Source: a virus. From it: a stretch of DNA of 28,291 nucleotides. The translations under genes were made by a program, and so were the position numbers. Positions 6,960-28,291 of this stretch are shown here, piece after piece (position 1 is the first letter of the stretch; each line of letters opens with the position of its first letter). A model generated the notes under the pieces. That model had not been told where the DNA came from, made no database searches, and saw only the letters and a program-made list of their open reading frames with translations. The stretch is from the IMG/VR virus record IMGVR_UViG_3300032296_000886, positions 1 through 28,291 of that record. One strand, written 5' to 3'.

Positions 6960-7174
6960 GCGAAGACTACCATCTCCCCATCTGCACCTGCTGCTATGCC
7001 GTCAGGGTTGAGCCGCATCGTAGGAATAGTCCTAGGCCGACATGTATGACATGTGCAGAGAAGTTGGCACGTGCTGTGAAGCACACCGTCGCACCGCTCA
7101 ACAAGAGCAACTACATGCTGTTCACCGACGTGGACATGCTCAAACAACTCAACCCTAAACGCACTGGAGAATGA
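6956..7174 (+). CDS. Putative zinc-finger protein
   Basis: A 72-residue protein whose N-terminal half has cysteines at 10, 12, 13, 30 and 33 (ICTCC ... CMTC), a spacing suited to a single zinc knuckle or treble-clef-like finger. The C-terminal half is a basic helix plus polar tail. The ATG at 6956 overlaps the previous stop by ATGA. Small phage zinc-finger proteins often bind nucleic acid or host proteins, but the partner cannot be told here. Confidence 0.72.
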   Translation: MSEDYHLPICTCCYAVRVEPHRRNSPRPTCMTCAEKLARAVKHTVAPLNKSNYMLFTDVDMLKQLNPKRTGE

Positions 7175-7175
7175 C

Positions 7176-7658
7176 ATGAAACTCAACAAGTTCCAAAAGC
7201 AAGCCATCGTTCGAGCCATCATGGCCGACGTTCCCAAGCCCGACAAAGCCAAGCGCCGCGCTGCTATCCAAGCCGAGGTGGTCAAGCTCATGTCCCCTGC
7301 TGTCCGCAAGGTTTACAACACGACTCCATCTGCACTGCGAACCCAGCATGTGGGGGACTTGTGCTACGACGGCGGTTCGTGGGCTACTCGTGATGTCATC
7401 GCTGGAGATGTTGCAGAGAAGGACATCAAGGCGATCTGCGAACCTTACAAGGCAGAGGATGAGACACGGTACAAGGCAGAGCGCAGTCTGGCCGGAGTGG
7501 TCGAAGCCTGCTCAACGCTCAAGCAACTCAAGGAGCGACTGCCTGAGTTCACCAAGTACTACCCCACCGAGGAGGCACCGACTGCCAACCTGCCTGCCCT
7601 TGCCAATGTCGTGGCTGATCTGTCCAAACTGGGCTGGCCCAAAGGAGCGAAAGCATGA
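7176..7658 (+). CDS. Conserved phage protein, possibly Nmad5-like
   Basis: A 160-residue protein with a helical N-terminus (MKLNKFQKQAIVRAIMADV) and a C-terminal segment TLKQLKERLPEFTKYYP. The start helix and the 'Tl-xx-L-xxxx-P-E-xxxx-P' segment resemble my memory of Nmad5, a phage family predicted to take part in nucleotide modification. The product of 12348-12977 has an analogous segment (TTLAPALKAWPPLWELIP). The assignment is tentative, because overall similarity is low and no catalytic residue is known to me. It begins 1 nt after the previous stop and overlaps the next gene by ATGA. Confidence 0.8.
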   Translation: MKLNKFQKQAIVRAIMADVPKPDKAKRRAAIQAEVVKLMSPAVRKVYNTTPSALRTQHVGDLCYDGGSWATRDVIAGDVAEKDIKAICEPYKAEDETRYKAERSLAGVVEACSTLKQLKERLPEFTKYYPTEEAPTANLPALANVVADLSKLGWPKGAKA

Positions 7659-7864
7659 AACAACCTTACATCCGACCGTTCGGCAAACCGATCCGAGAGC
7701 CACTGTGGCTGCGCTGTGTCAAGTGGCTGGGCAAGATGCTGCTGGCACTGGCCTTCGGCCTGCTGATGGCCGTGTTCCTGCTCGAATGGATGGTTGGCTG
7801 CGGTGAAACCTATGTTGACGCCAAGGGGGAACGCCATGAGCACCAATGCCTTTTCATCCGATAA
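7655..7864 (+). CDS. Small membrane protein
   Basis: A 69-residue protein with a basic N-terminus (about residues 1-27, several Lys/Arg), one strongly hydrophobic helix MLLALAFGLLMAVFLLEWMV (about 28-47) and a polar, cysteine- and histidine-containing tail. The positive-inside rule predicts N-terminus in the cytoplasm and tail in the periplasm. It starts in the ATGA overlap with the gene before and overlaps the next gene by 29 nt. It is too early in the map to be assumed a holin or spanin. Confidence 0.78.
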   Translation: MKQPYIRPFGKPIREPLWLRCVKWLGKMLLALAFGLLMAVFLLEWMVGCGETYVDAKGERHEHQCLFIR

Positions 7865-8078
7865 CCCACTGCGACTGTTCATGCTGAGGTATGGCAAGCG
7901 CGGTGCCCCAGTCCGTAACTCACAGGGCAACATCCTGTACTTTGAAACCAAGGAGGAAGCGAAACGATCCAGAGACGAACTCAACACGGGGGCAACCCCA
8001 CCCATCTTCGTTGTATCTCATGGCCCTGACCATCAACCCAAATCCGAGAGGAAAATCAAATGCGAGCCACTCTGCTGA
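7836..8078 (+). CDS. Hypothetical protein upstream of the AAA+ ATPase
   Basis: An 80-residue protein starting MSTNAFSSDNPLRLF. The ATG at 7836 has an AAGGGGG site; an earlier in-frame start at 7794 lacks one. The centre (GNILYFETKEEAKRSRDEL) reads as a strand followed by a charged helix, a pattern common in small DUF1508/KOW-like or 'YegP-like' units, not enough for assignment. It overlaps the start of the MoxR-type gene by 19 nt, so the two are translationally linked. Confidence 0.72.
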   Translation: MSTNAFSSDNPLRLFMLRYGKRGAPVRNSQGNILYFETKEEAKRSRDELNTGATPPIFVVSHGPDHQPKSERKIKCEPLC

Positions 8079-9046
8079 AAGAAACCATCAAGTCCCTGTT
8101 CCCCGTCCAGCGTACCCTGTGCATCGAGGGTAGCCCCGGTGGTGGCAAGACGACCATCGTCCATGAAGTTGCACAGGAACTTGACATCCCCTGCATCGAG
8201 CGACACATGCCGACCATGCTGGTCGAGGACTTCGGCATCCTGTTTCCCGACGGTGACGACAAGCTGCACTACAAGCTGCCCGACTGGTTCCCGGTCAAGG
8301 GCAAGGCTCCCGAGGCTGGCATCCTGCTGTTCGATGACCGCAACCAAGCTGGCCCCGATCTTCAGAAGGTGCTTGCCAACATCTGCCAAGCCAGAACGCT
8401 GCACGGTGTGTCCATGCCCGATGGGTGGCAGGTGATCTCCACTGGCAACCGACAGGCTGACCGTGCTGGTGCCAACCGTGTGCTGTCCCACCTTCGCAAC
8501 CGTGAGACTGTGCTGGAACTGGAGACACATCTGGACGACTGGACTGCATGGGCCATCAACCACGGTGTCAAGCCCGAGGTGATCAGCTTCATCCGCTTCC
8601 GTCCCGGTCTGCTGCATGACTTCGATCCTCAGCGTGACCAGAACGCAACCCCCCGAGCATGGGTTGACGGTGTGTCTGACGTGCTGGGCACTGTCCCTGC
8701 CGAGGCCGAGTTCGAGTGCTTCAAAGGTGCTGTGGGCGAGGGTGCTGCTGCCGAGTTCGTTGGCTTCGTTCGCATCTTCAGGAAGCTGCCCAACCCTGAC
8801 GCTATCCTGCTCAACCCTCAGACTGCTGACGTTCCCAAAGACCCAGCGACCCTGTATGCCCTGTCCGGTGCTCTGGCACAGCGGGCTACCGAGGCCAACT
8901 TTGAACGTGTCTGCCAGTACTCTGAGCGTATGCCTCCCGAGTTCTCGGTGCTGACTGTCAGCTATGCGGCCCGCCGTAACCCTGACCTTGCCAACACCCA
9001 AGCCTTCACCAAATGGTCGATCAACCACCAAGACGTGCTGTTCTGA
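8060..9046 (+). CDS. MoxR-family AAA+ ATPase
   Basis: A 328-residue AAA+ protein. Residues 24-31 (GSPGGGKT) are Walker A, 88-93 (ILLFDD) Walker B, STGNRQ with Asn130 is sensor 1, and R146/R148 in LSHLRNR are candidate arginine fingers. The second acidic residue of Walker B is Asp instead of the usual Glu, which may slow hydrolysis. MoxR/CobS-type ATPases form hexamers that remodel a partner, normally presented by a VWA protein. The DUF3150-like and HExxH-VWA genes downstream fit that pairing. AGAGGA precedes ATG 8060 and the stop overlaps the next start (TGATG). The substrate is unknown. Confidence 0.88.
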   Translation: MRATLLKETIKSLFPVQRTLCIEGSPGGGKTTIVHEVAQELDIPCIERHMPTMLVEDFGILFPDGDDKLHYKLPDWFPVKGKAPEAGILLFDDRNQAGPDLQKVLANICQARTLHGVSMPDGWQVISTGNRQADRAGANRVLSHLRNRETVLELETHLDDWTAWAINHGVKPEVISFIRFRPGLLHDFDPQRDQNATPRAWVDGVSDVLGTVPAEAEFECFKGAVGEGAAAEFVGFVRIFRKLPNPDAILLNPQTADVPKDPATLYALSGALAQRATEANFERVCQYSERMPPEFSVLTVSYAARRNPDLANTQAFTKWSINHQDVLF

Positions 9047-9258
9047 TGGACTACCTTGGATGGATTGACGACCTGCGGATACGTGGTCTGATTTCCGTCG
9101 ATGAACGACAAGCCATTGCCCACATGCTCAGGAGTGAACAGCCTTCTGTCGTGACGCAAGGGCTTGTCTTCTGCAACCGGATGAAGACGAGCCACCCCGA
9201 TCTGTGGATCGCATTCAAAGCAAAGCAACGTGTTCTGGGATTGAGTAAATCCAGATGA
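9046..9258 (+). CDS. Hypothetical protein in the ATPase-VWA module
   Basis: A 70-residue, mainly helical protein starting MDYLGWIDDLRIRG, with ISVDERQAIAHMLRSEQ in the middle and a basic C-terminus. The ATG at 9046 shares a base with the ATPase stop (TGATG), so it is coupled to it. An upstream in-frame ATG at 9013 lies inside the ATPase gene and is less likely. No family recognised; location suggests an accessory to the AAA+ protein. Confidence 0.72.
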   Translation: MDYLGWIDDLRIRGLISVDERQAIAHMLRSEQPSVVTQGLVFCNRMKTSHPDLWIAFKAKQRVLGLSKSR

Positions 9259-9295
9259 ACACACATCCATCAACTTGTATAGAGGAGTGACAACT

Positions 9296-10144
9296 ATGAA
9301 TCTCAACGACCGTGCCCTGCTGGTGCAACTCAACGTGTCCCAGTGGACTGCCCGCAAGTATGACAAGCGGGCTTCCAAGGAGGTGACGACTGCACACGGT
9401 GCAGCGTCTGCTGCTGGCCGCTTCAACAAGTCCCTGCTGCCGATGAACGACAAGCTGGACAACATCCACAAGAAGACCACCTTCATCCGTCAGAAGTACT
9501 ACGACAACACCCTGCCGTGGGGTATGGACGGCACCATGATGCTGCCCACTGCCAACTACCTGAACTTCATGTCCGACTTCCGCAAGGAGAAGGGTGACTG
9601 GGAGTCGCTGGTGCAGGAGTTCCTCGACGACTACGACCAGATGAAGATGGATGCCCAGCGCATTCTCGGTTCGCTCTACGACCCGGCTGACTATCCCAAC
9701 GGCTCTGAGTTGCGGCACAAGTTCAAGATGGACATGGCCGTGTTCCCTGTGCCCAGTGCAGACTTCCGGGTCAGCATAGGTTCGGAAGAACTGTCTCGCA
9801 TCCAGCAAGATGTTGAGCGACGTGTGAAGGATGCCGAGCAAGCTGCGCTGAAGGACGTATGGCAACGGCTCTACGATAGGGTCAAGCACATGGCTGAGAA
9901 GCTGGCCGATCCCAAGGCGATCTTCCGTGACTCGATGCTGGAGAACACTCGGGAAATCTGTGCCCTGCTGCCGAGGCTCAACTTCAGCGACGATCCCAAC
10001 TTGGAAGCCATGCGTCAGCAAGTGGAGGCATCCTTGTTGAAGCACCCCGAGGCACTGCGCAACGACCCCGACCTGCGGCAAGACACTGCTGCTGAGGCCA
10101 AGAAAATCATGGATGCAATGGGTGCATTCATGGGGAGCTTCTGA
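9296..10144 (+). CDS. DUF3150-like protein paired with MoxR/VWA genes
   Basis: A 282-residue soluble protein, mostly helical, starting MNLNDRALLVQLNVSQWTAR. GAGGAG precedes ATG 9296. The opening 'LxVxxWTARKxDKRAS' and the later YYDNTLPW, YPNGSELRHKF and VFPVPSADFRV segments recall DUF3150-type proteins, which are found beside MoxR ATPases and VWA proteins in phages and bacteria. The middle (about residues 160-220) is a long charged helix able to form a coiled coil. I assign the family from memory of context and motif, so it should be treated as tentative. It ends in a TGATG overlap with the zinc-ribbon gene. Confidence 0.82.
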   Translation: MNLNDRALLVQLNVSQWTARKYDKRASKEVTTAHGAASAAGRFNKSLLPMNDKLDNIHKKTTFIRQKYYDNTLPWGMDGTMMLPTANYLNFMSDFRKEKGDWESLVQEFLDDYDQMKMDAQRILGSLYDPADYPNGSELRHKFKMDMAVFPVPSADFRVSIGSEELSRIQQDVERRVKDAEQAALKDVWQRLYDRVKHMAEKLADPKAIFRDSMLENTREICALLPRLNFSDDPNLEAMRQQVEASLLKHPEALRNDPDLRQDTAAEAKKIMDAMGAFMGSF

Positions 10145-10437
10145 TGCAGATCACTATCGAGAAGATGCACTGCCCGCAATGCACTGAGAGTACCGCGTTT
10201 GAGGTACTGCGGTATCGCCCCGGCAAGGCGAACAATCGCACCACACTGCGGTGTGTGGGATGTGGACACGTGTTCGGAGTTGTTGAACCCAAGGAAAAGG
10301 AGTTCGTCGGATTGGAACTGGCCGAGATGGATGCAATCATCGACGGCAACATCACCATCACTGACCCGAGACTGCGGGATGGTGTGTACGGTGTGGTACT
10401 TGACACTATGACGACACTGATGGAGAAAAATACATGA
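10144..10437 (+). CDS. Zinc-ribbon protein in the ATPase-VWA module
   Basis: A 97-residue protein with a clear zinc ribbon: Cys10-x2-Cys13 and Cys37-x2-Cys40 (CPQC ... CVGC), the spacing of TFIIS-like ribbons. An acidic helical tail follows. The ATG overlaps the DUF3150-like stop, and the stop overlaps the next start (ATGA). It could bind nucleic acid, or act as a metal-binding adaptor for the module. The role is not shown by the sequence. Confidence 0.82.
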   Translation: MQITIEKMHCPQCTESTAFEVLRYRPGKANNRTTLRCVGCGHVFGVVEPKEKEFVGLELAEMDAIIDGNITITDPRLRDGVYGVVLDTMTTLMEKNT

Positions 10438-10628
10438 ACAAGGAGGACATCTTCGACGCTGATGGCACTGCCATACAGGCAGCGTATGACCTGATCCAAG
10501 TGATCCTGAAGACCGACCCCGGTGTATACGATGACATCGCTGGGCCTGTCCTGTTGCTGCTACGGCAGCGACTGGGTAGTTCATGGCGCAACGTACCCAA
10601 GAAACGCAAACCAAGGAGTGTGAAATGA
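10434..10628 (+). CDS. Hypothetical protein in the ATPase-VWA module
   Basis: A 64-residue protein, acidic and helical at first (MNKEDIFDADGTAIQAAYDLI), with a hydrophobic helix (GPVLLLLRQRL) and a basic tail (RNVPKKRKPRSVK). ATGA overlaps join it to the genes on each side. The hydrophobic run is too short and charged at its end for a membrane helix. No family recognised. Confidence 0.72.
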   Translation: MNKEDIFDADGTAIQAAYDLIQVILKTDPGVYDDIAGPVLLLLRQRLGSSWRNVPKKRKPRSVK

Positions 10629-11764
10629 CGACTGCAACCATTGACCTGAAGAAGCTGACCACCAAGCTGGCGAAAGCCAAGACCGCTCTGATTCTGGAGC
10701 ATCCGTTCGTCGGCACCATCGCCCTGTCCATGCCCTTCGAGTTCGACGAGAACATCAAGACCGCTGCCACCAACGGCAAGCGGATCAAGTTCAACCCCGA
10801 GTTCGTCAACGAGTTGACCGATGAGGAGGTCAAGTTCCTCGTGGCTCACGAGTGCTTCCATCCCATGCTGGAGCACAACTTCCGGCGTGGTCAGCGTCAA
10901 CCCCGGCGCTGGAACATGGCCGCTGACTACGTGATCAACAAGCTGCTGGTGGATGACGGCATTGGCCGGATGCCCAAGGTCGGACTGCACAACGATGCGA
11001 TCTACAACGCAGGGCACGGCACCAGCGAGGGCATCTACAACATCCTGCCAGAGCAGGACGAGAGTGACGGTGGGTTCGGCTCTGCCGATGGCCCGCTCGA
11101 TGACTGCGAGGACGGTGAGGGTAGCCCTGCCGAGCAGCAGCAACAGCAAGCCGAGTGGAAAGTGAAGGTGGCACAGGCTGCGCAAGCTGCCAAGATGATG
11201 GGCAAGATGTCGGCCAACATGCAACGTCTTGTGGATGAGGTGCTGCAACCCAAGGTGGACTGGCGTGACGTACTGCAACGCTTCCTCGTGAAGTGCCGCA
11301 ACGATCAGCGATCCTTCTCCCGGTTCAATCGTCGCTTCCTGCCGCAAGGCATGTACTTGCCCAGTGTCAGCGGTGAGGCGATGGGTGAGATCGTGTTCGC
11401 AGTGGACTGCTCCGGCTCCATCGACCAGAAGACTGTCAACCAGTTCGCTGCCGAGATTGCCAAGGTCAAGGATGACCTGCTGCCTGAGCGTATCCATGTG
11501 CTGTACTTCGACAGCGAGGTCAGCCACGTGGAATCCTACGAGGCCCACGATGATCTGGACATCAAGCCTCACGGCGGTGGCGGTACCGACTTCGCACCAG
11601 TCTTCGAGGCCATCATCGAGCATGGCTTCAACCCGGTAGCCATCGTGTTCCTGACTGACCTGTGCTGCAACAGCTTCGGCAACGAGCCTGATGCACCAGT
11701 GCTGTGGGTCACGACCGATCCGGGCAAGGCACCCTTCGGTGAGATCGTGGAGATGGGTGACTGA
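10625..11764 (+). CDS. HExxH metallopeptidase-like / VWA (MIDAS) protein, DUF2201-type
   Basis: A 379-residue two-domain protein. The N-terminal domain has His75-Glu76-x-x-His79 and a further His84, the zinc and catalytic signature of a metallopeptidase (DUF2201_N-like). A disordered acidic and Gln-rich linker spans about residues 143-176. The C-terminal domain is VWA-like with a full MIDAS: Asp261-x-Ser263-x-Ser265, Thr321 in GGGGTDF and Asp345 in FLTDL. VWA proteins present substrates to MoxR/CobS AAA+ rings, so the ATPase at 8060 is the likely partner. ATG 10625 has an AAGGAG site and overlaps the previous stop. Whether it cleaves protein or only binds metal is unknown. Confidence 0.9.
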   Translation: MTTATIDLKKLTTKLAKAKTALILEHPFVGTIALSMPFEFDENIKTAATNGKRIKFNPEFVNELTDEEVKFLVAHECFHPMLEHNFRRGQRQPRRWNMAADYVINKLLVDDGIGRMPKVGLHNDAIYNAGHGTSEGIYNILPEQDESDGGFGSADGPLDDCEDGEGSPAEQQQQQAEWKVKVAQAAQAAKMMGKMSANMQRLVDEVLQPKVDWRDVLQRFLVKCRNDQRSFSRFNRRFLPQGMYLPSVSGEAMGEIVFAVDCSGSIDQKTVNQFAAEIAKVKDDLLPERIHVLYFDSEVSHVESYEAHDDLDIKPHGGGGTDFAPVFEAIIEHGFNPVAIVFLTDLCCNSFGNEPDAPVLWVTTDPGKAPFGEIVEMGD

Positions 11765-11765
11765 C

Positions 11766-12107
11766 GTGGCAATCACAGCAATCGGCACAGTCCGGTTCGC
11801 TGCCCTTGCTGGTGCCCCTCCCTTACCGGAGGGGTATCACTTCGAGGCGATGCGGGACACACCCAACGGTGTACGTGTTGACGTGCATTTCAGAGGTGCC
11901 CGCATCTTCGAGATCGCTGCTGAACTGCGCTACGTACCAGAGTACGACGACCCCACTGGTACCCGGTTCGCTGCCCGAGTGGTGGAGGACAGGCACCCAA
12001 GGAAGCGGGCATTCAATCAACCCAGCAAATGGGTGGAGTTCGATGACATTACAACGCTGCTGCAAGCCATGCTTGCACGGCACAGGATAGGAGTAAGGCA
12101 ACCATGA
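11766..12107 (+). CDS. Hypothetical protein after the VWA gene
   Basis: A 113-residue protein with no ATG near the start. GTG at 11766 follows the VWA stop directly; GTG at 11757 would add three residues and sits closer to GGAG. The protein begins VAITAIGTVRFAALAGAPPLPEG when read literally, has beta-strand-like segments (VRVDVHFRGARIFEIAAELRYV) and a basic C-terminus (ARHRIGVRQP). Its stop overlaps the next start (ATGA). No family recognised. Confidence 0.68.
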   Translation: MAITAIGTVRFAALAGAPPLPEGYHFEAMRDTPNGVRVDVHFRGARIFEIAAELRYVPEYDDPTGTRFAARVVEDRHPRKRAFNQPSKWVEFDDITTLLQAMLARHRIGVRQP

Positions 12108-12337
12108 ACGTATTTCACGACGAGGAGTACACCGCACAGGTGATGACCGCAGCCAAGCGGATCAGCGAGGCACTGGCCGAGACTGAGTTCGACGTGGCGA
12201 CCAACGCCCTGATGACCATGCTTGCACAGTGCGGCAAGCAGTCCACGCTGACGACCGAGCAGTTCCTCACAGCGTCCGTGGTGCAGATGAAGCACCTGAT
12301 GGACAACATGACAGTAATCGAGCATCCCATTCAATAA
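12104..12337 (+). CDS. Hypothetical helical protein
   Basis: A 77-residue acidic, wholly helical-looking protein starting MNVFHDEEYTAQV. An AGGAG site lies upstream within the previous gene, which it overlaps by ATGA. Regular hydrophobic spacing in the segment 15-45 suggests a helical bundle. No family recognised. Confidence 0.75.
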   Translation: MNVFHDEEYTAQVMTAAKRISEALAETEFDVATNALMTMLAQCGKQSTLTTEQFLTASVVQMKHLMDNMTVIEHPIQ

Positions 12338-12347
12338 GGAGAGTGAC

Positions 12348-12977
12348 ATGGCAACAGTACGTTTTTCCAAAGAGTTGATCGACCGCATCGAGAAGGCAGC
12401 ACGTGCCAAGATGGAACCCGCAGTGAACCGGGTCAAGGAGCAGAAGCTCGACAACGCATGGGGTCAGAAGATTTACGACACCCTGTTCCTCGAAGACAAG
12501 CCGCTCATCGCACAAGTTCCTGCTGCATGGTTGCGTACCGTGGAGAACATCGAGATCAGCGAGGTCGGTGGCCGACACTGCGGTATGACCTTCACCTTCG
12601 CAACGCCGCAGCCGTGGCCGTACCAGTTCCCCGATACTGAACTGGCCCGCAAGCGTTCGTCCTATGGCGACAGCATCACCCTCAAGGAGCACCTTGTCTG
12701 GGGTGAGTTCCACGCTGAGGTGACTGCCTACCATCAACGTGTTCAGGAAGTAGCCAAGCGGCGCGATGAGTTCGTCGATATGGTCAAGAAGGTATGCAAC
12801 GCATACACCACACTGGCCCCGGCGCTCAAGGCATGGCCTCCCCTGTGGGAGTTGATCCCCGAGGACGTGAAGGACAAGCACCGTGAGATCAAGGTGCGTG
12901 AGAAGACCGAGGTGGTACTCGATGTTGACATCGGGAAACTTACTGCCCTGAGTACTGCTGCCAAGTTCGGACTGTGA
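12348..12977 (+). CDS. Conserved phage protein, possibly Nmad5-like
   Basis: A 209-residue protein with an AGGAG site before ATG 12348. It begins with a helical stretch (FSKELIDRIEKAARAKMEP) and has a strand-rich centre with MTFTFATPQPWPYQF. After a helical stretch comes NAYTTLAPALKAWPPLWELIP, the segment that matches the C-terminal part of the product of 7176-7658 and of Nmad5 proteins as I recall them. Nmad5 is predicted to work in phage nucleotide or nucleic acid modification. Family call is moderate at best; the gene itself is secure. Confidence 0.83.
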   Translation: MATVRFSKELIDRIEKAARAKMEPAVNRVKEQKLDNAWGQKIYDTLFLEDKPLIAQVPAAWLRTVENIEISEVGGRHCGMTFTFATPQPWPYQFPDTELARKRSSYGDSITLKEHLVWGEFHAEVTAYHQRVQEVAKRRDEFVDMVKKVCNAYTTLAPALKAWPPLWELIPEDVKDKHREIKVREKTEVVLDVDIGKLTALSTAAKFGL

Positions 12978-12979
12978 AT

Positions 12980-13396
12980 ATGAGACGACAAGTATTCATG
13001 CGCCCTGTGCCGATAGTTAATCGGAAGCAGCGCATCGACGATGAGAAGCGCCGAGAGTGGCTACGTGCCTTGCGCCGTTTCAAATACGGCATGAAGGTAC
13101 GTGCCAAGCTCGGTGTACTGCAAACCTACTGTGAACAAGTTGCAGCACAACGCAAGGGTAAACAAGTATGGGATGCACCCCAATGGGAGCACGACAGGTG
13201 GGTTACATTCCTGTACACTTGCATCAAGAACAATGAGTATCCACCGGAGCTACTCGAAGGGTTCGTGAAGACGGCAGAAGTGACGTTCTTGAATCCCAAG
13301 AAGCAGCCCACGGTGGAGATGACCATCGACGCAATGAACGAGGTATGCAAGCAGTTGAGTAGGCCGCTGCGTACCAAGTTCGGTGTGTTCATGTGA
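12980..13396 (+). CDS. Hypothetical basic protein
   Basis: A 138-residue protein starting MRRQVFMRPVPIVNRK. It is strongly basic in the first 55 residues, with a helical centre and a C-terminal helix (TVEMTIDAMNEVCKQL). The ATG at 12980 is 2 nt past the previous stop; a GTG at 12974 overlapping that stop is an alternative. The basic N-terminus suggests nucleic acid binding, though no motif is recognised. Confidence 0.76.
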   Translation: MRRQVFMRPVPIVNRKQRIDDEKRREWLRALRRFKYGMKVRAKLGVLQTYCEQVAAQRKGKQVWDAPQWEHDRWVTFLYTCIKNNEYPPELLEGFVKTAEVTFLNPKKQPTVEMTIDAMNEVCKQLSRPLRTKFGVFM

Positions 13397-22794: not shown

Positions 22795-25644
22795 ATGAAC
22801 ACGTTGAACTTTCTTCAGCGGGTTCTACCGTCGGCAGGTTTCTATGTCACCACAGTCATCAATCCAGATGGGCGACGCCAAGGATTCTTCGCCACAGTAG
22901 AGGAACTCGCAAAAGCTGTCGTTGGCTTAGACCAGCGCGGCAACAACACATACTTCGCCATCTCGGCGTTCGTCGAGAAGGGGAACAGAAAACAGGAGAA
23001 CGTCCGGGCGACCAAGGTGATCGCACTGGATGTCGATTGCGGAGATGGCAAACCCTTCCCGACGTGGAAGGAGGGGCTGGCTGCGACGGGCAAGTTCATC
23101 CAAGAGATGGCACTGCCCAAGCCCATGATCATTCACTCGGGCAACGGTCTGCACGTCTACTGGGCGCTGACCGAAGAACTGGAGCCGCTGCGGTGGAAGC
23201 CGCTGGCCGAAGCCATGAAGGCTGCTGCCAAGGACAAGGGCTTCGAGATCGACCCGGCTGTGCCTGCGGACAGTGCGCGTGTGCTGCGCCCCGTGGGTAC
23301 CACGAACCCCAAGAGCGGAACTCAGGTCAAGCTGCTGATCGACGCAGCGCCCACCACCGTGGAGCAGATGACCTCGTGCCTGTCGGCGTACTTGGTGGCT
23401 CATCCTGTGAGCCTGCCACGTTCAACATCCAGCAGTCCGTTGGCACAAGCTCTCGTCGTCCAGAACGACCTGCCTCCGGCCAATGCCACCGTCGTGGCTG
23501 CGAAGTGCCAGCAGATCGGCTGGGCCATCAAGAACCAAGGCGATGTCGAGGAGCCATTCTGGTACGGCCTGATCGGTGTCGCGGCCTACTGCCAAGACGA
23601 AGTGGCAACCGCCATCGCGTGGTCGGATCAACACCCCGGCTACAACCAGAACGAAACCGTCCGCAAGCTATCACACTGGAAAACGGCAACGACAGGCCCG
23701 ACAACCTGCAAGAAGTTTGAGGAACTGCGCCCCGCTGGCTGCAAGGGCTGCAAGTTCAAAGACAAGGTGGGCACCCCTGCCCGCCTCGGCATCCAGTACC
23801 TTGAGGTCGCCCCGTCCAACACTGCCCCGGACTCAGCGGCCAACGACATCCCGGTGCCCCGCCCCTTCAAGCGCACCACGGACGGCATGAAGATGACCAT
23901 CGACGAGACGGACATCGACGTGTGCAAGTTCGACATCTACCCCGTGGCCTACGGCAAGGACGAGTCGCTCGGGTATGAGACGGTGCGCTTCCACTGGAAC
24001 CGCCCGCACATCGGCTGGCAAGAACTTGTGATGCGGCAGGCGCTGCTCACCGAAGGACACCGCGACTTTGCCACGGTCATCGCCGACCAAGGCATCGTCC
24101 TCCACAACCGTAACCAGACAGGATATTTTCAAATCATGCTGCGCTCATACATGGATGAGTTGCGGCAGAAACGTGCGATGACGAACCTGTACGCCACGAT
24201 GGGTTGGAAGGAGAACTTCTCCCAGTTCGTCATTGGTGACACGATTCTGCGTCGCAATGCTGATGGCTCCGTCAGCGAAGAATCAATCTCCCTCGCCTCC
24301 GGCTCTGCCCGACTCGGCCACGAGTTGTGGTCTACCGCTGGGTCGCTCGATGCGTGGATCGGCTTCACGTCGCTGCTTGCCAAGGCCGACCTGCGGGCAC
24401 ACATGTTCGCGCTGGCCGTGGGCTTCTCCGGCCCGCTGTATGCGTTCACTGGCCTCAAGGGTCTGACCGTCTCGCTGTACGGGCCGACAGGCGGCGGCAA
24501 GTCGCTGGCCCAGATGTGGATTCAGTCCATCTTCGGCAACCCCGAGAAGCTCCACTTCGCAGCCAAGTTCACCCAGAACTCGCTGTTCGGTCGCATGGGT
24601 CTGTACTCCCACATGCCCATGACCATCGACGAAGTGACCATGATGGACAACAAGGAAGTGGGCGACTTCGCGTACTGGGTCAGCCAAGGCCGGGACAAGG
24701 CGCGGATGAACCGCAACGCAGAGGAGCGGGACGCGAAGACGTGGGCACTGCCAGTGGTCGTGTCCACCAACAAGTCCATGAACTCCAAACTGATTGCCAG
24801 TGGTCTGGACACCGACGCGCAGTTGGCCCGTATCCTCGAAGTCAGCGTACCGCCCAGCAAGATATTCACCAAAGACAGCACGGCTGGCCGCAAGGTCTAC
24901 GAGTTCGTCACCAGCAACTACGGCCTCGTCGGTCGTGAGTTCATCAAGCGGCTGCTGGAACTGGGCGAGTCGGGTATCCGCGCTGCCATCGCGCAGGCCA
25001 CCGAAGACTTCCGCAAGGAGTACAAGGCGCAGTTCTCCGGTGAGGAGCGGTACTGGGAGCAGTCCATCATCCTTGCAAACCTCGCTGCCAAGCTGGCGAA
25101 AGACTGGGGCCTGATCGACTTCGACCACAAGGTCGGCATCGAGTGGGTGCTATCGCAAGTGGGAGCGATCCGTCGCGCTGCTGCGGAGTTCAAGGTCGAT
25201 GCGTTCGACCTGCTGACCGAATACCTCAACGAGAACTCAGACGCCACGCTGACCGTCACCCAGACGGGAACCAGCAAGCCACTGGTGGACTTCAGCCGTG
25301 TGCCCCGTGGCGAACTGCGGGTGCGCTTCGAGATGTACCGCAAGACAAACGGAGACATCTTCTCGCATGGCACCGTCATGCTGGATCGCACCCACTTCCG
25401 TCGCTGGCTGGCGCAGCGCGGCGCAGACTACAAGACGTTCATGGGTGAGTTGCACGACGAGGGCGTCGTCGCCACACCGAAGTCCAATAAGGCGTACCTC
25501 GGCAAAGACTCACCGATCAAGCTGGGCCAGTCCTACGTGATTGGGGTGAACCTCACGCATCCACGTCTGCAAGGCATCCTCAGTGACGCAGACCAAGCCC
25601 TTGAAGACTTGGCCTACGGTCAACTGAAGGTGGTCACTCCGTGA
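22795..25644 (+). CDS. Primase-polymerase / DUF927 helicase
   Basis: A 949-residue fusion protein starting MNTLNFLQRVLPSAG at ATG 22795 (AGGGG site; a longer GTG start would run through the hairpin). Residues 1-180 are an archaeo-eukaryotic-type prim-pol domain: Asp79-x-Asp81 (ALDVDCG), SGNGLH with His120, then ADSARVLRPVGTTNPK. The middle has a Cys-containing region (CKKFEELRPAGCKGCKF), and residues about 390-800 form a DUF927-type helicase with Walker A GPTGGGKS (563-570) and Walker B TIDE (Asp612-Glu613). It should unwind and prime DNA at the fork for the family A polymerase. Its 3' end overlaps the converging late gene by 11 bp. Confidence 0.93.
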   Translation: MNTLNFLQRVLPSAGFYVTTVINPDGRRQGFFATVEELAKAVVGLDQRGNNTYFAISAFVEKGNRKQENVRATKVIALDVDCGDGKPFPTWKEGLAATGKFIQEMALPKPMIIHSGNGLHVYWALTEELEPLRWKPLAEAMKAAAKDKGFEIDPAVPADSARVLRPVGTTNPKSGTQVKLLIDAAPTTVEQMTSCLSAYLVAHPVSLPRSTSSSPLAQALVVQNDLPPANATVVAAKCQQIGWAIKNQGDVEEPFWYGLIGVAAYCQDEVATAIAWSDQHPGYNQNETVRKLSHWKTATTGPTTCKKFEELRPAGCKGCKFKDKVGTPARLGIQYLEVAPSNTAPDSAANDIPVPRPFKRTTDGMKMTIDETDIDVCKFDIYPVAYGKDESLGYETVRFHWNRPHIGWQELVMRQALLTEGHRDFATVIADQGIVLHNRNQTGYFQIMLRSYMDELRQKRAMTNLYATMGWKENFSQFVIGDTILRRNADGSVSEESISLASGSARLGHELWSTAGSLDAWIGFTSLLAKADLRAHMFALAVGFSGPLYAFTGLKGLTVSLYGPTGGGKSLAQMWIQSIFGNPEKLHFAAKFTQNSLFGRMGLYSHMPMTIDEVTMMDNKEVGDFAYWVSQGRDKARMNRNAEERDAKTWALPVVVSTNKSMNSKLIASGLDTDAQLARILEVSVPPSKIFTKDSTAGRKVYEFVTSNYGLVGREFIKRLLELGESGIRAAIAQATEDFRKEYKAQFSGEERYWEQSIILANLAAKLAKDWGLIDFDHKVGIEWVLSQVGAIRRAAAEFKVDAFDLLTEYLNENSDATLTVTQTGTSKPLVDFSRVPRGELRVRFEMYRKTNGDIFSHGTVMLDRTHFRRWLAQRGADYKTFMGELHDEGVVATPKSNKAYLGKDSPIKLGQSYVIGVNLTHPRLQGILSDADQALEDLAYGQLKVVTP

Positions 25645-25645
25645 C
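25633..25645. repeat. Palindrome holding both converging stop codons
   Basis: GTCAC-TCC-GTGAC is a perfect inverted repeat. The stop of the minus-strand gene (25634-25636) lies in one arm and the stop of the prim-pol gene (25642-25644) in the other. The stem is too short for an intrinsic terminator and no T run flanks it. No other terminator is seen where the two arms meet. Confidence 0.55.
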
Positions 25646-28291
25646 GCCGTAGAGTTCGAGGATGCGTTCTGTCTCGGGACGCATCGCTCGTGTCTGTGTG
25701 CGCAGGAAGCGTTCCGTGGCAGTGCGCTGGGCCTCACGCAATGCGCGGTTGGCCGAACCCTCGAAGCTGCGGATTTCAAGGCCGGTGCCCTTGGCCGCTT
25801 CGTTCCAGTCCTTGACCATCTGCACCACTTCGCGGGCACGTTCGTTGTCCTTGGCGATCTTGGCGCTGACGTACATCCCACGATATGCTGCTGCGACATC
25901 CTTCTGGTAGTCGCCGATCCGCTTGGACAGCCGCACCACGTCGTTCTCTGCCACCGCAGCAGCCGGGTAGAAGCCCAGCGCCCGAGTCAGCATCGTGCCA
26001 AGATGTAGGTCGTTGCTGACCACATACCCCTTCTGACTGACGATGGCACCTGCGTTGTTGTAGGCCATCATGTCACCCAGCGCACGGAACATCACCACGG
26101 GCGACTCGCGCAAGATGGAGTTGAACGAGGTCTTGTCGTCCAGCACACCCACAGTCTCCAGTCCGTAGCGGGCTGCATCGGCTCCGGTTGCCAGAGCACC
26201 TTGCAGGAAGGACGCCACCGGCCCAGCGATCTCGATCAGTTCCCGTCCCACGTCTGCACCGGCCAGCGCGATGCCGGTACCGGGGATGATGTTGGACAGA
26301 GACACACGGTCGGCCACGTTGGCAGGCGTGATGGTGTTGAGCAGACCACGCATCAGGATGGGCGTCATGCCGGGAGCGATGGCGTCCAGTGCCTCGGCCA
26401 GAGACTTCTCGGCGCTGCCCTTCCACACGGCGTTCGGGCCAAGCCCCAGTGCCTGCGCAATGGTGTCGATGATGTCCATCAGGTCTTCGGCGAACGGTAG
26501 ACCCTTCAGACCGGCGAACATGGCAAGGATGCCCAGCGCCAGCAGTTGCTCCTTGCGGGGCAGCGCGGCCAGCATCTGGATGCTGTTGACCGGGAACATC
26601 TTGAACATGAACAGGAACTGGCGCACGTCACCACGGAACATGGCGGGGCGGTTGAACATCGCATACTCGCCCAGCGTGTTGTCGATCATGTCCACTGCGA
26701 ACTTGTCGGCCACCTCGAAAGCTGTTGCTGCGTCTTTGCCTTCGGCCAGAGCGCGTGCGTAGGCCATGCGGAACGCAGCCAAACCTGTTGCGCGGCGGCT
26801 GTGCTGCTCGGTGTAGTTGAACAAGGACATCCACACTTCAGCCGCAGCCTTCGTGGCACCAGAGCGGAACTTGCCCCGCGCAGAACCCAGCAACGAGTTG
26901 GTCAGTGCGGCCTGCATGGTGCCACCGCCGACTTCCTTCTGCATGAACCGCGCCTCGGCCTCGGTGAACCCGGATGCCTTGAGCTTGGCCGGGTCTTCGA
27001 GCAGGTCGTCCCAGAACTTCACTTCGCTCTGACCGAAACCCTTGGTCGAGTTGATGGCGCGGCTCAGTTCCACAGAGGTCATGCCCCAGCCGAAGCCGCC
27101 GCCGAAGGCGTTCTTCTGGTTGTACCCAGAGAAGGCGGGCAGCACGTTCGTCGCCAGCGACAGGTAGTTCAGGATGGCCGTGGCAAACGACGCGCCCATG
27201 AACGTGAAAGTTGTTGCCGTGCGGATTGCAGACGCTGCTTCGCCAGACGCGAAGTCCGTGTAGTCCACGTTGGTCTGTGACTCCATGAAGGCCACGGCGC
27301 GGCGACCACGATCCTTGTAGCGGTTGCCCATGACGGGCGACTCTTTGGTCACAAACGTGTAGTGGTAGTCGTCGAACTCCCGCTTCGCTGCCACCTTAGC
27401 CGCTTCGGGCATGGCCGGGTCTTTCTCGGCAGCTTCCCACGCAGCCTTGCGGCGGTCGTACTCGGTCTTGTCGCCGAACCACAGGCGGATGGAATCCGGG
27501 TCTGCATCATCAAACAAGCGGTCGAGCCGGTGCCGGTTCTGCTTGCGTGCCACAGTGGACGCAGTTGACTCAAGATGCTGCGACACGTACTTGATGGTGT
27601 TCGGGTCTTCACCGGGAGTGCCCGCACGCTTGAGGCGGGTACGAGCCTTGGCGTTCTGCTGGGTCAGGCCCACGATCAGACGCTCACGCTCCTCCGGCGT
27701 GATGCTGATGGAGAAGCGGGTGATGGCCGAGATGATCTCGTTGAGGTTGGCCTCAGCCGTGGTCGAGACTGTTTCACGGGCCGTCTCAGGCTGTGCAACA
27801 AGTTTGACTTTCCTGACCACGAACTCGGTGCCGTCCAGCACTTCCATCTCGAAGCCGCCCTCGACACCATCGAACATGCCTTGGATGCGCTCGGCCATCG
27901 CCTCTGCCTCGGCGCGGTTCTCCACCTGCGAGAACAGCAGGTGCTGGCGGTACTGCTCCGACACCTTGAGGATGCGGCCCGTGCGAGGGTCAACGGCTTG
28001 GATGCGAACCTGCCACGAACCCTCACGACCGAACGGCACGTAGCCGCCAGCGATGGAACGCTTGGCGAGTAGCTCGGCGTCGGTTTTGCTCAACTCGAAC
28101 AGCGCCAGATTCTGAATGGCCTGCTGCATGGCGAAGCGATCAGGGCCAGAGCGCGGGATGTTGGAATCCTTCTTCAGCGCCTCGATACCCTTGGACACAT
28201 CATCGGCTTCCTTCTGGTCGAAGAACGCTTGCACATCTGCGTTGCGGTCAGTGTCACGGCCCAGCACAGCGGCGTTGAACTTCTTGATGAA
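25634..28291 (-). CDS. Very large virion-associated or polyvalent protein (C-terminal part, cut by right window edge)
   Basis: The frame is open from the right edge to the stop at 25634, giving 885 visible residues; the true start lies outside the window. The protein is largely helical, with long charged stretches and a more hydrophobic region about residues 560-620 (QFLFMFKMFPVNSIQMLAAL, LLALGILAMFAGLKGLPF) able to enter or lie on a membrane. The layout, size and late orientation fit the giant internal virion (ejection) proteins of podoviruses or the 'large polyvalent protein' family, whose C-termini (LPD38-type) I recall as similar. No transglycosylase motif is visible in this part. Role as DNA-ejection protein is an inference. 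Confidence 0.75.
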   Translation of the reverse strand, partial: FIKKFNAAVLGRDTDRNADVQAFFDQKEADDVSKGIEALKKDSNIPRSGPDRFAMQQAIQNLALFELSKTDAELLAKRSIAGGYVPFGREGSWQVRIQAVDPRTGRILKVSEQYRQHLLFSQVENRAEAEAMAERIQGMFDGVEGGFEMEVLDGTEFVVRKVKLVAQPETARETVSTTAEANLNEIISAITRFSISITPEERERLIVGLTQQNAKARTRLKRAGTPGEDPNTIKYVSQHLESTASTVARKQNRHRLDRLFDDADPDSIRLWFGDKTEYDRRKAAWEAAEKDPAMPEAAKVAAKREFDDYHYTFVTKESPVMGNRYKDRGRRAVAFMESQTNVDYTDFASGEAASAIRTATTFTFMGASFATAILNYLSLATNVLPAFSGYNQKNAFGGGFGWGMTSVELSRAINSTKGFGQSEVKFWDDLLEDPAKLKASGFTEAEARFMQKEVGGGTMQAALTNSLLGSARGKFRSGATKAAAEVWMSLFNYTEQHSRRATGLAAFRMAYARALAEGKDAATAFEVADKFAVDMIDNTLGEYAMFNRPAMFRGDVRQFLFMFKMFPVNSIQMLAALPRKEQLLALGILAMFAGLKGLPFAEDLMDIIDTIAQALGLGPNAVWKGSAEKSLAEALDAIAPGMTPILMRGLLNTITPANVADRVSLSNIIPGTGIALAGADVGRELIEIAGPVASFLQGALATGADAARYGLETVGVLDDKTSFNSILRESPVVMFRALGDMMAYNNAGAIVSQKGYVVSNDLHLGTMLTRALGFYPAAAVAENDVVRLSKRIGDYQKDVAAAYRGMYVSAKIAKDNERAREVVQMVKDWNEAAKGTGLEIRSFEGSANRALREAQRTATERFLRTQTRAMRPETERILELYGVTE

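Follow-up and report, generated by a model that had tools for sequence, protein, structure and literature searches.

A stretch of viral DNA of 28,291 nucleotides (IMG/VR record IMGVR_UViG_3300032296_000886, positions 1 to 28,291; referred to here as the window) carries, at positions 8060-11764 of the plus strand, a gene cluster whose three core members probably specify an ATP-driven machine for protein remodelling, one of the MoxR-von Willebrand factor A (VWA) type with a built-in peptidase. The core consists of a MoxR-type AAA+ ATPase (8060..9046), a helical protein of 282 amino acids distantly related to DUF3150 (PF11348; 9296..10144), and a two-domain protein of 379 amino acids (10625..11764) that joins a HExxH domain to a VWA domain with a metal ion-dependent adhesion site (MIDAS). 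The record is a virus fragment; larger relatives of this phage are IMG/VR records of about 51-60 kb.

Co-inheritance of the three core genes

Gene order was compared in a viral set of 80 loci. Wherever the ATPase, DUF3150-like and VWA genes could all be seen, which was the case in 69 loci, they had identical order and strand; in the 11 loci without the ATPase gene, the VWA gene begins no more than 2.5 kb from the locus end. Each of 13 records of 51-60 kb contained one copy of the middle gene. An initial annotation of the window had placed the ATPase, the DUF3150-like protein and the HExxH-VWA fusion in one module, and the 69 loci support a single co-inherited module of these three.

The same annotation had counted six proteins as one machine, which is not supported because three of them are lineage-specific. 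The six open reading frames (ORFs) of the cluster are tightly packed, with TGATG or ATGA overlaps coupling four junctions; the third of them, the DUF3150-like gene, likely starts at 9296. Apart from the core genes, they encode a 70-amino acid protein of no assigned function (9046..9258, plus strand), coupled by TGATG to the ATPase stop codon and probably starting at 9046 (ORF finder start: 9013); a zinc-ribbon protein (10144..10437, plus strand; CPxCG_zf, PF19769, 33.9 bits) with a TGATG junction; and a 64-amino acid protein of no assigned function (10434..10628, plus strand) with ATGA overlaps on both sides. The zinc ribbon was found in six viral loci, and in L031 it lies at a different position; the 64-amino acid ORF was also found in six, and the ORF of 70 or 81 amino acids in two (61-64% identity). 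Since so few relatives carry them, the zinc-ribbon protein and both small proteins were rejected as core parts, and the machine would comprise three proteins plus optional extras.

The ATPase

The ATPase matched phrog_1297 (E 2e-69). Its Walker A motif is GSPGGGKT and its Walker B motif LLFDD, in which Asp replaces Glu. The P-loop residues, D92, N130, R148 and R199 were invariant in the alignment; Asn130, Arg148 and Arg199 are presumed, by position alone, to be the sensor and finger residues. In Pfam, the protein passed the cut-off of AAA (PF00004; 22.9 bits vs 21.2) and scored slightly below that of AAA_5 (PF07728; 21.1 bits vs 22.0), which was passed by the relatives L162, L163 and L164. The best match of the ATPase profile among solved structures was Midasin (Rea1; E 2e-20). 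As predicted for the window module, Midasin combines an AAA+ ring with a MIDAS domain; however, it is a single eukaryotic polypeptide of ~5,000 residues that acts in ribosome maturation and has no peptidase.

The replacement of the Walker B Glu, pointed out in the initial annotation, is a fixed trait: DD was present in all 66 viral relatives and additionally in five Burkholderiales plasmid ATPases. Glu was found in N4, SBP1, phiFa, phage G, MinM2 and in loci from Rhizobiales genomes, the last being included in a count of 69 bacterial-genome homologues with a DE Walker B. In the Gastranaerophilales homologue L107, EE occurs instead of DE. All ATPases seen with the Walker B Asp have a DUF3150-like neighbor; the converse does not hold. 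ATPase identity within the lineage was 67-96%. In a phylogenetic tree, every ATPase with a DUF3150-like neighbor fell into a single clade with support of 90/84, which is moderate in a tree with several long branches; the clade also includes L107, a contig of 4.6 kb on which no DUF3150-like neighbor was found.

The HExxH/VWA protein

The third core protein matched phrog_1314 (E 1e-106), as well as DUF2201_N (168 bits vs a cut-off of 23.2, E 4.1e-49) and DUF2201 (105.6 bits vs 26.4, E 2.5e-30) in Pfam (accessions PF13203 and PF09967). In view of these Pfam domains the PHROG label 'HNH endonuclease' was rejected; on this metallopeptidase-VWA family, including gp25 of the RefSeq phage NC_008720, it looks like a propagated misannotation. 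Translation likely starts at the ATGA at 10625, which is preceded by aaggag; the ORF finder start at 10583 is unlikely. Counted from 10625, the putative zinc site HECFHPMLEH (10847..10876, plus strand) comprises His75, Glu76, His79 and His84, and the MIDAS motif VDCSGS (11402..11419, plus strand; in full DCSGS...T...D) comprises Asp261, Ser263 and Ser265.

As the initial annotation had stated, the HExxHx4H site and the MIDAS motif are complete. Together with Asp101 they were invariant in all 80 viral relatives and unchanged in N4, SBP1, phiFa, phage G and MinM2; hence, the zinc site, which might have proved degenerate, is intact in phages. The zinc and MIDAS motifs and the Walker B DD cannot be attributed to chance, because they are kept in 80/80 and 66/66 viral relatives, respectively. 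Candidates for the third metal ligand are His84 and Asp101, both invariant. A structure model (predicted local distance difference test, pLDDT, of 80) showed a C-terminal VWA fold (Z score 12.8, root mean square deviation 2.4 over 128 residues). The N-terminal domain resembled the minigluzincin selecase in a Foldseek comparison (probability 0.99, 70-76 columns, E 0.025-0.034), and its profile match to selecase was weak (E 0.008). Peptidase activity of the HExxH domain is plausible. VIA-align rows are largely limited to the VWA domain (residues 250-379); the lack of a zincin in them is therefore uninformative.

Among 75 homologues from bacterial genomes, the first MIDAS Asp was present in 74 and the HExxH Glu in 53. 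In these contigs (L087-L161) the HExxH Glu was not shown in 22 of the 75, with the MIDAS kept; the chromosomal ATPase/DUF2201 branch is possibly a pseudo-peptidase branch. Since the MIDAS outlasts the HExxH site outside phages, what stays constant is the coupling of VWA protein and ATPase, with strict retention of the peptidase site in phages.

The middle protein

The middle protein is a distant relative of DUF3150 lying below the Pfam cut-off: it scored 10.3 bits against PF11348, for which 24.9 are required. Weak DUF3150 matches were obtained for 15 of 34 members of the lineage, with a best E of 6.6e-4. Canonical DUF3150 proteins were gathered from bacterial genomes and compared with the middle-protein family profile against profile using hhalign, which aligned 237 columns with a probability of 94.7 and an E of 5.7e-8; control profiles, reversed or shuffled, gave E values of 0.25-0.85. 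Thus, the description as DUF3150-like given initially stands at the level of profile comparison and fails at that of the Pfam match.

Near-full-length relatives with about 30-42% identity were found by tblastn in cyanophages and in 44 plasmids; among the matches listed, one cyanophage protein and two plasmid proteins are annotated as DUF3150. The nearest annotated relative, L167, reached 22.1 bits against PF11348 (cut-off 24.9). Searches with PF11348 in Rhizobiales genomes and phages found nothing, as expected for a window-type protein so distant from DUF3150. A structure model of low confidence (pLDDT 66) consisted mainly of long helices, and neither a fold search nor a search of solved structures with the model or profile yielded a PDB relative. 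NCBIfam gave nothing informative, and a literature search on DUF3150 found no paper. Furthermore, neither the middle protein nor any of its relatives matched a VMAP-family Pfam domain, and the MoxR-vWA-VMAP ternary conflict system was therefore rejected as an identification.

Occurrence in phages, bacterial genomes and plasmids

The co-occurrence of the core genes extends beyond the 69 viral loci. The triplet was found together in seven loci of Rhizobiales genomes (L087-L093), with the DUF3150-like gene upstream of the ATPase gene; in cyanophages, MinM2 having the order of the window phage; and in Burkholderiales plasmids, in phage order near a PRTRC cassette. The Burkholderiales triplet, for example on pRK1-1 of Cupriavidus basilensis (L167), is the closest non-phage form: it combines a DD Walker B ATPase and a DUF2201-type VWA protein with a DUF3150-like protein 34-42% identical to that of the window. 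It differs in its surroundings, with the PRTRC cassette on one side and, in several plasmids, type IV secretion genes on the other, and in having a degenerate HExxH site in L164 and L169. Type IV secretion genes adjoin in three of the four loci L165 and L167-L169.

Phage N4 encodes an adjacent homologous pair, the ATPase (26% identity) and HExxH-VWA protein (30%) of gp24/gp25, in which HExxHx4H and MIDAS are kept. The pair differs in having a Walker B DE instead of DD and no detectable DUF3150-like gene. Both gp24 and gp25 are in the CoreGenes list of the Schitoviridae (PMC7650795, Table 2). A MoxR-vWA pair with an N-terminal metallopeptidase, the same domain pairing and fusion as in the window, was reported from jumbo phages by Iyer et al. 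in 2021; the passage describing it mentions no third, DUF3150-like component (PMC7824862). In view of this HExxH-VWA/MoxR pair of jumbo phages and the Schitoviridae core pair, the novelty implied in the initial annotation is reduced.

A parallel form of the module is carried by plasmids. Six genome regions with canonical DUF3150 were inspected; a CobT-like VWA protein, likewise bearing HExxH, was present in five of them, and in most a CobS-like ATPase lay within the stretch read (AAA_5 and CbbQ_C in the three scanned). The parallel with CobS-CobT drawn initially is thus apt. The order in pCAR1.2 is ATPase, DUF3150, VWA. In an Escherichia coli IncC plasmid, the module is interleaved with ssb-bet-exo, which are followed by the DUF3150 and VWA genes, with an AAA ATPase gene before them; in Rts1, the triplet directly follows ssb, recT and exo. 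The modules of IncC, pCAR1 (ORF100-103), Rts1 and SXT/R391 share with the window the three components and their order, a HExxH-then-VWA protein in most copies, and a middle protein homologous to that of the window at profile level. They differ in the ATPase, which is of the AAA_5 and CbbQ_C (CobS) type with a Walker B ending in DE or NE where read, and in the VWA protein, which is larger, with 545-731 amino acids in those copies that were read, and belongs to the CobT rather than the DUF2201 type. The Rts1 VWA gene (L191, 11030-14192) is apparently split by an IS2 insertion, and this component may be non-functional there. Plasmid-type DUF3150 was present in 1,168 plasmid records, of which 978 were typed as conjugative.

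The phage ATPase/VWA-peptidase pair and the plasmid DUF3150 block are already known; conservation of the latter among pCAR1, R478, Rts1, SXT and R391 was noted in 2009 (PMC2642839). In the open-access literature searched, we did not find described that a DUF3150-type component links the phage DUF2201-type and plasmid CobS/CobT-type modules, nor the strict retention of the triplet in a large lineage of uncultured phages or its fixed Walker B Asp.

Proposed mechanism and alternatives

In MoxR-VWA systems the VWA domain captures a client peptide and the ATPase transmits force (PMC7159879). By analogy, the window ATPase would assemble as a ring, and the MIDAS of the VWA domain would grip an acidic side chain, belonging either to the client or to the ring. 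Because the DUF3150-type protein is helical, it may serve as an adaptor or client selector. Hydrolysis of ATP would pull the client, with the Walker B Asp probably slowing hydrolysis, and the position of the zincin next to the VWA domain suggests that the HExxH domain clips the client once captured.

The client itself is more speculative. It may be bound to DNA or belong to the replication or recombination apparatus of the element, and the machine may work in the manner of Cdc48 with the minigluzincin Wss1 (PMC4559962), a likeness of working principle and not of descent. The module lies a few kb upstream of the DNA polymerase gene in the window lineage, it adjoins helicase and polymerase genes in SBP1, and the pair of Rhizobium phage RHph_TM3_14A is located upstream of the polymerase gene. 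We slightly favor a DNA-metabolism protein of the element as client because the neighbors are polymerase and helicase genes in phages and ssb-bet-exo in plasmids; a host factor is possible. A broader proposal is tentative, namely that lytic phages and conjugative plasmids share a ternary machine of AAA+ ATPase, DUF3150-type adaptor and zincin-VWA protease which extracts and cleaves proteins on replicating or recombining element DNA as a bacterial counterpart of Cdc48-Wss1/SPRTN, the fixed Walker B Asp tuning the window branch to slow turnover.

Several observations weigh against a remodelling machine with a built-in peptidase. The activities and interactions of all members are predictions from sequence. 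The HExxH residues are lost in the plasmid triplets L164 and L169, which retain the MIDAS; as the Glu is also replaced in more than a quarter of the chromosomal homologues, cleavage cannot be universal. No DUF3150-like protein was detectable beside the pair in N4-type phages and RHph_TM3_14A. Gene neighborhood is weak evidence for a client, and the Burkholderiales copies lie between the PRTRC cassette and transfer genes, not beside replication genes. Finally, a systematic deletion study of Rts1 identified 32 genes needed for transfer from E. coli to E. coli and found that bet and exo affected transfer; its list of transfer genes jumps from Orf224 to Orf239 (PMC10838148). Since the triplet, matched by map position and not by the ORF numbers of that paper, falls into this gap, it is apparently not among the genes identified as necessary for such transfer, and any role there would be conditional.

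A conditional role would suit a function in counter-defence or host takeover, in which the client is a host protein, such as a defence factor, that is unfolded or cleaved, and the machine is needed in some hosts only. Lytic phages and conjugative plasmids, which both carry the module, both face host defences, and the apparent absence of the triplet from the Rts1 transfer genes in laboratory E. coli fits a conditional factor. However, the strong conservation of the ATPase within the lineage is unlike that of most fast-evolving counter-defence genes, and no PADLOC model matched, anti-defence families not having been screened as such. We regard this role as possible but doubtful. PADLOC models gave only short P-loop matches to IetA (E about 1e-3); as none matched over most of a protein, a known defence system was rejected.

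We assign a similarly low likelihood to a non-enzymatic regulator, in which the HExxH domain is a metal-bound structural or substrate-binding part of a pure chaperone resembling RavA-ViaA. The homologues on plasmids and chromosomes that lost HExxH residues and kept the MIDAS speak for it, but none of the 80 viral relatives departs from the putative zinc-site residues, the catalytic Glu among them, and the same is true of N4, SBP1, phiFa, phage G and MinM2.

It is unlikely that the module is a virion assembly chaperone-protease, acting in the maturation or processing of structural virion proteins. This role was proposed for the jumbo-phage pair on the model of Acidianus two-tailed virus, whose tail requires a MoxR-VWA pair (PMC7824862), and the conservation of the pair over many tailed phages agrees with it. 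Conjugative plasmids with the triplet, or with its parallel form, make no virions, however, and the phages examined carry the genes in their replication region and not in the structural one; a virion client is therefore disfavored. The virion RNA polymerase of N4-type phages was also rejected as client, as no similarity was found in the parts of a relative searched and module-bearing plasmids have no virion.

A metal chelatase resembling cobaltochelatase or magnesium chelatase, inserting metal into a tetrapyrrole, is highly improbable: the ATPase plus VWA architecture recalls CobS/CobT and ChlI/ChlD and plasmid relatives at times carry cobalamin annotations, but the large subunit CobN/ChlH (PF02514) was absent from all 17 triplet-bearing records searched (13 viral and four other) with a positive control search, which largely refutes this function, and an intact HExxH site is no known requirement of a chelatase.

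Genomic context of the window phage

A search at the DNA level with window positions 7000-13000 against 50,697 phage records found no match. The minus strand of the window carries a terminase gene, and the plus strand genes for a DNA polymerase, an exonuclease, a helicase and a primase-like protein. The nearest named DNA polymerases are those of Rhizobium phages RHph_TM3_14A, TM27 and TM29 (37%) and Pseudomonas phage KPP25 (37%); in contrast to the Schitoviridae, the polymerase of the window phage is closest to the RHph_TM phages and not to N4. One contig of the lineage (L086) was binned in a metagenome-assembled genome of an uncultured actinobacterium, which may result from faulty binning or may point to the host.

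The module is flanked by a gene at 7176-7658 matching Nmad5 (nucleotide modification associated domain 5; 45.0 bits vs a Pfam cut-off of 27.0) and by a second Nmad5-like gene at 12348-12977, whose 22.2 bits are below the cut-off; relatives of the latter are located downstream of the VWA gene throughout the lineage. At 25634-28291 the minus strand encodes the truncated end of a giant protein without similarity to the N4 virion RNA polymerase. Similarity to that giant polymerase, gp50, was found neither in the window fragment nor in L006 nor in positions 1-39800 of the relative G003 (~2.7 kb lie outside this range). The G003 region matching window positions 25634-28291 contains an open frame of ~2,775 amino acids plus a primase-like gene.

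Significance

N4-type phages have the ATPase/VWA-peptidase pair as an unexplained part of their core gene set, and the DUF3150 module is an unexplained backbone element in more than 1,000 sequenced plasmids, mostly typed as conjugative and including resistance-carrying groups such as IncC. The shared third component joins the phage pair and the plasmid module into one testable question, for which N4 in E. coli K-12 and pCAR1 in Pseudomonas putida KT2440 offer laboratory systems, and it argues that the virion-assembly role proposed previously cannot be the whole story. If the target of the machine were identified, a component common to much mobile DNA would be explained.

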